From: Candidatus Poseidoniaceae archaeon
GTDB taxonomy: Archaea > Thermoplasmatota > Poseidoniia > Poseidoniales > Poseidoniaceae
DNA length: 64,000 bases
Assembly: GCA_949372875.1 (NCBI GenBank)
Contig: CASIAW010000001.1
Span: 372,001 to 436,000, forward strand
Direction of reading: 5' to 3'
Under the pieces are notes generated by a model. It did no database searches. It worked only from the letters and a program-made list of their open reading frames with translations, and was not told the origin of the DNA. Position 1 is the stretch's first letter, and the number at the start of each line of letters is the position of its first letter. Positions 22,319 through 25,045 of this stretch are shown one piece after another. A program made the translations under genes and the position numbers.

Positions 22319-23467
22319 TCATTCAAGAACTGGGCGTGAAGTTTTTCCGGAACCTCGATGGCCAATCAACCGAATTGATTCCCAAGGCGGAGATGCTGCA
22401 GTAGACTTTTCTCGAATAGAGGAGACTGATTGTTCCCACTTCCATTTCTTGCGCCACATCCCAATCAATTCTGTTCTACGTGAAGCGTCGCATTCCGACC
22501 AAGGAGTAGTTTCGGACTGAAGTTCGCGAAGAACCGCCTCATGGTTTTCTTCTGTTGCTTGGTTCAAAGTGTGTTGTTGTGCTGCATCAAGAGGGCGAGT
22601 CGCTGGCTGAGTCCAACGGGCATGACCTGATGGTAACCAGGTCCTGTTCGGATCTGAGCAATCGGTTAACCCTGTTAACCCAGCGGAGAGTAAATCATGT
22701 TCAACATCAAGACTCGTAGGCCATACATAGATTGGGAAACCACGTTGCTGAGCACTCAATCGTTTCGCTTTGGCTCCATGTAAGCCACCAGCATAACCCA
22801 GAGGGATGTGACTTCTTGGTGGCAGAAAGTATTCTATTGCGCAAGGTGACATTGAAGCACCAGAGCGACGATGAGTTCGTATCAAGCGAGCAATAGAAGT
22901 GGTGAAAAATTCAGCACTCGCTCGCAGTCTTTTGGTATAGTGATTCCCGAAAGGTGGGACATATGGGACTAATTCAGCCCAAGGTCGTTCACTCTTTGCA
23001 GATTGAATTGAAGATTTCATGCCTCTGTGAAATGAATAATACACAGTGTTCCCTGATGGTACCTCAAATTCTTTCAACAGAGATTCTGTCTTCCTCATCA
23101 TTGACGCTACATGAGCAGTGTGTTTCTTTTTCCCAAAGAAACCGCCTCCATGCAAAGCACGTGGGTGCGGGCGCTTGAATTCAATACAACCCATCTTGCC
23201 CTTATTTGCCCATTCCGAATGAATGGCAGAATCTTCCAGCATTTCACGAAATGAAACAAAGCCAAGTGAGGTTAATTCCTCCAGCGTATGGTTTTCTGTC
23301 CATGAAAAGGAGTGTGGCATCTTGTGTTCAGGCACGGATATTGTGGAATCGTGATGAATGATAAGCTCTTCATCTTGCGTCAACCGAACATCGAATTCAA
23401 TGCCGTCATTATGTTGAATTGCATGGCGTAAACTCTCGAGGGTATTCTCTGGTGCCTGTTGCCACAT
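22319..23467 (-). CDS. Glycerophosphodiester phosphodiesterase-like protein with HRG motif at C-terminus
   Basis: Members hydrolyse glycerophosphodiesters to glycerol-3-phosphate and an alcohol on a TIM barrel. The N-terminus begins APENTLESLRHAIQHNDGIE, the part that normally follows strand 1, then EFDVRLTQD (Glu24, Asp26), HHD (His38-39) and IEFKRP (Glu96, Lys98). The barrel's last strand is at GLTGLTDCSD. The first-strand motif with the catalytic His-Arg, normally at the very start, is missing there. It appears instead at residues 366-382 as IRLIGHRGSGK, ending at VLE and a stop. An in-frame TAG sits directly before the ATG, so no N-terminal HRG was overlooked. Between barrel end and HRG lies a ~85-residue helical linker. 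All key residues are present in permuted order, so it may be active. Two-base gap to the citrate synthase stop. Confidence 0.75.
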   Translation of the reverse strand: MWQQAPENTLESLRHAIQHNDGIEFDVRLTQDEELIIHHDSTISVPEHKMPHSFSWTENHTLEELTSLGFVSFREMLEDSAIHSEWANKGKMGCIEFKRPHPRALHGGGFFGKKKHTAHVASMMRKTESLLKEFEVPSGNTVYYSFHRGMKSSIQSAKSERPWAELVPYVPPFGNHYTKRLRASAEFFTTSIARLIRTHRRSGASMSPCAIEYFLPPRSHIPLGYAGGLHGAKAKRLSAQQRGFPIYVWPTSLDVEHDLLSAGLTGLTDCSDPNRTWLPSGHARWTQPATRPLDAAQQHTLNQATEENHEAVLRELQSETTPWSECDASRRTELIGMWRKKWKWEQSVSSIREKSTAASPPWESIRLIGHRGSGKTSRPVLE

Positions 23468-23582
23468 CTACGCCACCAAACGAGCCTATGGAGGGGTCCC
23501 TTCTAAGCACTGCCGTTTAGAGCATGGGATTTCACTTGATAGAACAGAAGTAGCCTCACACTGGTTTCTGAATCATACTGCC

Positions 23583-23611: not shown

Positions 23612-25045
23612 ATGGACCCATACCAAATCATGATGGGCCTCATCTTACTTCTAACTCCCTTCATATGCTGGTTTTTTACCTTCCACAACCCCTCAATGCG
23701 GACACCTTTCAAAAAATGGTTACAAGTTATTCACAACCAGCGGTATTATCTCCACGCAATGGGATACATTGTCATCATCAGGTGGAAATCACTTACCGAT
23801 AAATTGAATGAACCAATCAAACTTAAAACCGGTCATTGGACTGAAATGGTTTACTCCCTCGAGGGTAACTTTACGCTGCATGTTCAAGAGTTCTTCCTCA
23901 ATGATTCGCTCACGGCTTTCCTCAACTTCCACTACTTGTTCATTTATCTGTTCTTAATTTATGTCACGACAGTATATTTCGCTTACACTGGTGACCGTGA
24001 CATGACTGACAAAGTGACAATGAATTATTTACTCATTTATGCACTTGCTGTACCGTACTACCTTTTCTTCAATGTCGAAGTCACTTCTTCCTGGATTCCT
24101 GGGATGGAATCATTGCTTTACCATGAAGGATGGTATAGCGTCTTCTATGCGACACATGACCCATTGGATAACGCTGTTCCATCTCTCCATGTTGCCATCC
24201 CATTTGGAATTCTTTTGTTGAATTATTTGCATGTAAAAGAAAAAGGAGGTACCATGAAAGAATGGCGGCATTATCGCTATCACATCTTCATTCTCCTCAA
24301 CACTATCCTGTTCATATTCACCATTCTGTATCTCGGTATTCACTGGTTCATTGACATTCCATTGGGAATGATTATTGGGGGCATTGGGGCACTGTTCATC
24401 CACCACCTTCAACCACGATTACGCAACGATCATGGCAGTTTTTTCAAAGGCTTTACAACCAAGAAAATTCGTCAACACTTACTGGTTGAAGGAATTATTA
24501 CGTTGCTTTTGTTGACGACTATTCTTATGGCAGTACAAGTTCAAACGGAAACAGTTGACGAACGAGTTTCTTTCCAACTCGGGCCAGATGACTCACGATT
24601 TGAAATCATCCAAAAGTTTGACCCGGGCAAACAAGTACATTCGAACGTAACGAACCTTCATGATTCAATAACGATGGAAATCGTTGTAATTATGGTTGAT
24701 TTGGCCCCACCTATTATGGAGAATGGTTCGATTGATTGGAACATTGCTCGTGAACTTGGAGAGGTCTATACCGTTGAACCAGAGTCAACCATTCAACTGG
24801 TGATAGACTCTCCCATGGTATTCCATTACATCATGATGCACAACCCGAGTTCTGCTGATACTGGTGATGTAATTCAGGTGCGAATCTTGAATGATTATCA
24901 TGAAGACCTGATGGGTCAAGCAATATTCCTCTCTCTTGCTTCACTTTGGATGACTGGTTTTGTCATTAATCGAATACGACGGTTGAAAAAATATAACCGG
25001 AATTTCTACGACTCAACACCATCTCATCTTTGGGAACAAGAATGA
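23612..25045 (+). CDS. PAP2-superfamily membrane phosphatase/phosphotransferase
   Basis: 477-residue membrane protein with an N-terminal helix, five or six helices to about residue 270, and a C-terminal extracellular domain (~305-445) followed by a last helix. The phosphatase signature is present: NAVPSLHVAIPFGILL (second motif with catalytic His) and LGIHWFIDIPLGMIIGG (third motif with His and Asp). The layout resembles the AUR1/inositol phosphoceramide synthase-like branch of PAP2 rather than soluble acid phosphatases. Substrate is probably a lipid-linked phosphate on the outer side. The extra domain (with DDSRFEIIQKFDPGKQV) is not recognised. It is followed 21 bases later by tatC. Confidence 0.8.
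   Translation: MDPYQIMMGLILLLTPFICWFFTFHNPSMRTPFKKWLQVIHNQRYYLHAMGYIVIIRWKSLTDKLNEPIKLKTGHWTEMVYSLEGNFTLHVQEFFLNDSLTAFLNFHYLFIYLFLIYVTTVYFAYTGDRDMTDKVTMNYLLIYALAVPYYLFFNVEVTSSWIPGMESLLYHEGWYSVFYATHDPLDNAVPSLHVAIPFGILLLNYLHVKEKGGTMKEWRHYRYHIFILLNTILFIFTILYLGIHWFIDIPLGMIIGGIGALFIHHLQPRLRNDHGSFFKGFTTKKIRQHLLVEGIITLLLLTTILMAVQVQTETVDERVSFQLGPDDSRFEIIQKFDPGKQVHSNVTNLHDSITMEIVVIMVDLAPPIMENGSIDWNIARELGEVYTVEPESTIQLVIDSPMVFHYIMMHNPSSADTGDVIQVRILNDYHEDLMGQAIFLSLASLWMTGFVINRIRRLKKYNRNFYDSTPSHLWEQE

Follow-up and report, generated by a model that had tools for sequence, protein, structure and literature searches.

The gene at positions 22319–23467 of the window (the whole 64,000-nucleotide stretch of DNA that was analyzed) encodes a protein that we consider, with a probability of roughly 0.93, to be a natural circular permutant of glycerophosphodiester phosphodiesterase (GDPD). 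This circular permutation, already claimed in the initial annotation, is borne out by a profile alignment in permuted order, a rotation test, conservation among relatives, selection on both ends of the protein, and AlphaFold models of 2 members.

The catalytic HRG motif is located at the C-terminal end of the protein

The gene, recognized by Pfam family PF03009 and by its orthologues, is on the minus strand and extends from an ATG at 23465–23467 to a TGA at 22319–22321; the coordinates, frame, and residue numbers given in the initial annotation, with APENTLESL as residues 5–13, proved correct. The 382-residue product begins with MWQQAPENTLESLRHAIQHNDGIEFDVRLTQDEELIIHHD and finishes with PPWESIRLIGHRGSGKTSRPVLE. 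Its N-terminus (residues 1–13, MWQQAPENTLESL, 23429–23467) corresponds to the end of the β1-α1 loop and the start of helix 1 and lacks strand 1, and the reading frame terminates with the former strand 1 and the catalytic HRG (RLIGHRGSGKTSRPVLE, then the stop codon). The moved strand 1 spans residues 366–372 (RLIGHRG, 22352–22372), of which H370, R371, and G372 occupy 22352–22360. The ten residues that remain C-terminal to the HRG (373–382, SGKTSRPVLE, 22322–22351) are interpreted as the opening portion of what was once the β1-α1 loop; SRPV is mostly missing from the second Poseidoniales family. An in-frame TAG (23468–23470) stands immediately 5′ of the ATG, and the short frame upstream, which reads ARLVA between 2 stop codons, contains no HRG, in agreement with what had been noted before.

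The Pfam GDPD profile matches residues 4–77 of the protein at profile positions 7–70 with 54.6 bits (curated cut-off 23.6). Because this match starts only at profile position 7, profile position 1 (the HRG) is missing at the N-terminus. The HRG motif is present and invariant, yet C-terminal, and in place of the canonical PF03009 order, in which the HRG strand is N-terminal in the domain, the order is β2...β8-linker-β1. We thus name the protein a permuted variant rather than an ordinary PF03009 member. As the Pfam match spans only the first fifth of the protein, annotation may mistake the gene for a fragment without the catalytic HRG.

The other GDPD motifs were located on the same strand. Strand 2 carries the metal-site motif E24-F-D26 (23390–23398) and is followed by the insert motif H39-D40 with the insert's catalytic histidine (23348–23353), so that both the ExD and the HD of PF03009 are found. 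E96-x-K98 in barrel strand 3 (23174–23182) aligns to the EIK motif of canonical GDPDs, W249 in strand 7 (22721–22723) lies in YVWP, the counterpart of VWTVN, and D269 in strand 8 (22661–22663) lies in GLTGLTD, the counterpart of DGIITD according to the model and the profile alignment. None of E24, D26, H39, D40, E96, K98, W249, D269, H370, and R371 varies among 35 diverse members. The linker that joins strand 8 to the relocated strand 1 (residues about 274–361, 22385–22648) matches no Pfam family and is modelled as helices (295–302, 309–319, 328–342, and 348–354 in the AlphaFold model). An internal HRG at residue 147 (SFHRGM) was considered as the real motif and rejected, as it is present in only 11/78 relatives.

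Rotating the C-terminal columns improves the alignment to canonical GDPDs

To compare the 2 orders, a profile of the permuted family built from 35 sequences was aligned with hhalign, unguided, to 29 canonical GDPDs of Thermoplasmatota. The alignment came in separate pieces: query 4–149 on template 17–156, query 240–272 on template 223–257, and query 365–375 on template 6–17, the last being the segment with the moved strand. When the C-terminal columns were rotated to the front, the score rose from 125.7 to 149.0 and query pieces 365–375 and 4–149 fused (template 6–156). Sixty shuffled tails treated in the same way gave a mean of 126.3 and a maximum of 134.7, a gain of at most 9 versus 23 for the real tail. 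The score stayed on a plateau wherever the cut was placed between about 150 and 360, and it dropped at 370, where the HRG itself no longer comes to the front. The same elements are therefore found in rotated order, and the rotation itself supports that order.

Single-sequence tests were less decisive. On the rotated window protein, the Pfam match begins at profile position 1 with a gain of just 4 to 6 bits, and scores against a purpose-built HMM rose after rotation by about 8 to 10 bits in the second family and by about 2 to 6 bits in the window's family; in the latter, the real tail was at times equalled by the best shuffled one. A clear separation required the profile–profile test.

Structure predictions model the C-terminal piece as a confident strand

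AlphaFold with the family alignment modelled the window protein with a pLDDT of 91.4 and a pTM of 0.91, and a second-family member that is 37% identical was modelled with values of 90.6 and 0.89. The model of the window protein has strands at residues 22–29, 35–37, 92–97, 141–145, 163–165, 207–210, 246–251, 265–268, and 367–369. In this model, strand 35–37 belongs to the GDPD insert and the remaining eight would form the barrel, with 367–369 as strand 1; from strand assignment, confidence, and homology, this strand would pair with strands 22–29 and 265–268. The last strand of the second-family model is 334–337, and the C-terminal piece is a confident strand in both models, which represent 2 distant members. 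The prediction that the initial annotation had called for thus models the C-terminal HRG strand as part of the fold. GDPD crystal structures ranked first in Foldseek searches with both models, at target-normalised TM-scores of only about 0.5–0.7 (0.66–0.69 against 1o1z). Such values are expected when a permuted, enlarged protein is aligned sequentially, and they do not amount to proof. AlphaFold and Foldseek together thus predict a GDPD-type TIM-barrel fold.

The permuted order is conserved throughout Poseidoniales

Of 40 relatives, 37 match. A genome scan returned 115 relatives, and the best 80 of these 115 are in records of Poseidoniales, Poseidoniaceae, Poseidonia, or unclassified Euryarchaeota. 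Besides the MG-II chromosome CM001443.1, the permuted gene was recovered from MAGs assembled independently and from isolates such as AG-333-I22. Viral relatives were searched for and none was found. In a survey of 293 sampled Thermoplasmatota genomes (82 Poseidoniales and 211 others, counts from the results table), the permuted type was present in 79/82 Poseidoniales genomes of 2 families (42/43 in the window's family and 37/39 in the second) and in none of the 211 others, where matches were confined to model positions 2–77. Since several of the Poseidoniales matches run off contig ends or end prematurely (e.g., in genome G026), the C-terminal HRG was verified separately in 78 distinct complete proteins. 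All 78 carry HRGxG at the C-terminus, within the last 8–18 residues, which is far more than chance would give, and all 78 have an ATG, GTG, or TTG 1–6 codons ahead of the conserved W/Y that precedes PENT, which leaves no room for strand 1 in front. The homologue search suggested in the initial annotation thus found the same order in every complete relative, and its assignment to MGII was right.

The source genome has a single copy of the permuted gene and no second GDPD was detected in it; in the sampled genomes of the window's family, likewise, no GDPD other than the permuted one was detected. Some second-family genomes have a second, short GDPD-like protein. Many genomes of this family encode a canonical-order GDPD-like protein of about 195 aa with GHRLG replacing HRG (loci L141 in G026, L142 in G036, L143 in G025, L144 in G027, and L140 in G264), which lacks the half with VWTVN and TD, ends in a conserved RVGRHR...W segment, and is possibly a half-barrel or repurposed relative. 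Two genomes of one second-family genus hold a full canonical GDPD (L138 in G039:C11 and L139 in G302:C51); G302 has both the canonical and the permuted form, and G039 shows the canonical one only.

Among ten close homologues, dN/dS was 0.02 for residues 1–12, 0.04 for residues 362–382, the block that includes the tail, and 0.36 for the linker end (346–361). These ratios are rough because synonymous sites are near saturation, whereas the contrast in dN (0.05 versus 0.39) is independent of it. Strong purifying selection acts on the C-terminus as far as the stop codon.

The gene adjoins a convergent citrate synthase gene in both families, and PAP2 and TatC genes accompany it chiefly within the window's family, where their arrangement is constant. 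We assign no function on the basis of these neighbors. In the window, the divergent PAP2 neighbor (23612–25045, plus strand) encodes 477 aa with a PAP2 phosphatase domain. In most of the window's family this gene has stayed next to that of the permuted GDPD, which may reflect a link to lipid metabolism.

Proposed catalysis and origin of the permuted enzyme

In Staphylococcus aureus LpgD, a reaction in two steps was delineated with mutants of His51, Glu78, and His93: the 2-hydroxyl is activated by His51 together with Mn, His93 serves as general acid, and the reaction passes through a cyclic phosphate (PMC10404611). By motif and spacing, these residues correspond to H370, E24, and H39 of the window protein, all invariant, and the metal-site Glu and the insert His are 15 residues apart in both proteins. 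Because of this match, we predict that the permuted enzyme is active as a metal-dependent phosphodiesterase. E24 and D26 would hold the divalent metal, H370 together with the metal would activate the attacking hydroxyl, H39 would act as general acid, and glycerophosphodiesters would be hydrolysed as by GlpQ and LpgD. Since the LpgD H51A mutant retains significant activity (PMC10404611), the moved histidine is expected to accelerate the reaction without being strictly essential for it. The predicted role is phospholipid recycling in Marine Group II archaea, with glycerophosphodiesters of scavenged lipids as a substrate guessed from knowledge of the family.

The chain would have been cut in the β1-α1 loop, on the active-site face, and the linker, about 90 residues long, would bridge the original ends. 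Strand 1, which bears the catalytic HRG, would be synthesised last and would close the barrel by fitting between strands 8 and 2. Such an arrangement is geometrically easy in a TIM barrel: helix 8 ends on the bottom face close to where strand 1 begins, so that a linker can be accommodated there while the chain is cut in a top loop. Both families share the linker tryptophans W323 and W344 and the PW...RxIGHRG approach. Given these common linker features and the citrate synthase neighbor, the simplest account is that the permutation arose once, before the 2 sampled Poseidoniales families diverged, and was then kept. Permutation by duplication would predict intermediates, and no duplicated form with HRG at both ends was present among the 78 complete relatives. 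The P-x-E repeat (RPVLE/APEN), read in the initial annotation as the scar of such a duplication, did not hold up, as it occurs in the tail of only 4/78 relatives.

One catalytic histidine of the permuted protein is near the N-terminus and the other is thirteen residues from the C-terminus. It is conceivable, if improbable, that the permutation is itself functional, with the conserved tail SGKTSRPV gating the active site or delaying activity until translation is complete, or with chains that swap the strand and so share active sites; this idea draws on the late synthesis of the catalytic histidine and on the placement of the two termini at the mouth of the active site.

Alternative explanations

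Relatives bear most directly on the idea that the gene is an ordinary GDPD broken by frameshift, misassembly, or truncation, with a C-terminal HRG that is coincidental or comes from an overlapping gene. The stop codon directly 5′ of the ATG and the slightly strand-1-like ARLVA upstream would fit such a history, but the order shared by 78/78 complete relatives refutes it, a conserved upstream HRG does not exist in any frame (the 9 matches among 82 sequences are scattered), purifying selection extends up to the stop, and the gene is also present on an independent chromosome assembly. A frameshift that restores an N-terminal HRG, against which the initial annotation had cautioned, was not found, and we give this reading almost no credence. 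A P-loop remnant deserves equally little credence. GHRGSGKT matches the Walker A pattern GxxxxGK[ST] to the letter in the window sequence, but the lysine is D or V in 3/78 relatives while HRGxG is invariant, the chain stops there and leaves an NTPase fold no space, and the profile alignment identifies the segment as GDPD strand 1.

Two further readings are each unlikely. The protein might be conserved for its GDPD fold yet have lost catalysis or been repurposed, with a phosphodiester-binding or regulatory role, as its divergent body (Pfam scores of 54.6 bits for the window protein and 24.9 for a distant relative) and its distance from any curated NCBIfam equivalog cut-off would allow. The invariance of E24, D26, H39, E96, K98, H370, and R371 in 35 members would be unexpected for a dead enzyme. 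Slightly less probable still is a domain swap in which the moved strand completes the barrel of a neighboring subunit, so that active sites are common to 2 chains. The long helical linker could span to another chain and single-chain prediction is compatible with this, but the C-terminal strand is positioned with high confidence in the single-chain models, and the linker varies in length, some relatives having a shorter one (open frames of 343–367 aa), so no swap is demanded.

Comparison with known systems

Canonical GDPDs of the GDPD/GlpQ/UgpQ type (PF03009), such as Thermotoga TM1621 (1o1z), Bacillus subtilis GlpQ (5t91), and S. aureus LpgD (8ghh), have the same TIM barrel and, following strand 2, the same hairpin insert; the HRG, ExD, HD, ExK, W, and TD motifs are common to both forms. 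They differ from the permuted protein in that its HRG strand 1 is C-terminal and a linker of about 90 residues connects strands 8 and 1; overall identity is low, about 9–20% in Foldseek alignments.

A further comparison is with the canonical GDPDs of other Thermoplasmatota and of sister group f3 (L145–L148), probably MGIII of the same class. They belong to the same family and phylum, are about 230–250 aa long, and have the HRG first, aligning from profile position 1. No citrate synthase match was found within the stretches examined near these genes. In the f3 proteins L147 and L148, a long β1-α1 loop (HRGRTSRKSADNTL) resembles the permuted tail (HRGSGKTSRPVL) followed by ENTL, and by this sequence likeness it may hint at a loop that preceded the permutation.

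A full-text search of open-access papers for a permuted GDPD returned nothing relevant. To our knowledge, there is no other natural permutant in the GDPD family, and permutant enzymes that are fixed across an order and replace the normal form are uncommon. The permutation indicates that the GDPD barrel tolerates a cut beside its catalytic histidine, it can, on the simplest account, be dated to before the divergence of 2 Poseidoniales families, and it offers a test case for the survival of such rearrangements. Natural circular permutants among TIM barrels are also represented by the GH70 glucansucrases, which are permuted relative to the GH13 α-amylases (PMC11046441). As in the permuted GDPD, the catalytic motifs are kept in GH70, although the families are unrelated and the cut differs: the GH70 barrel begins at the counterpart of helix 3, whereas the permuted GDPD is cut in the β1-α1 loop and only a single strand has moved.
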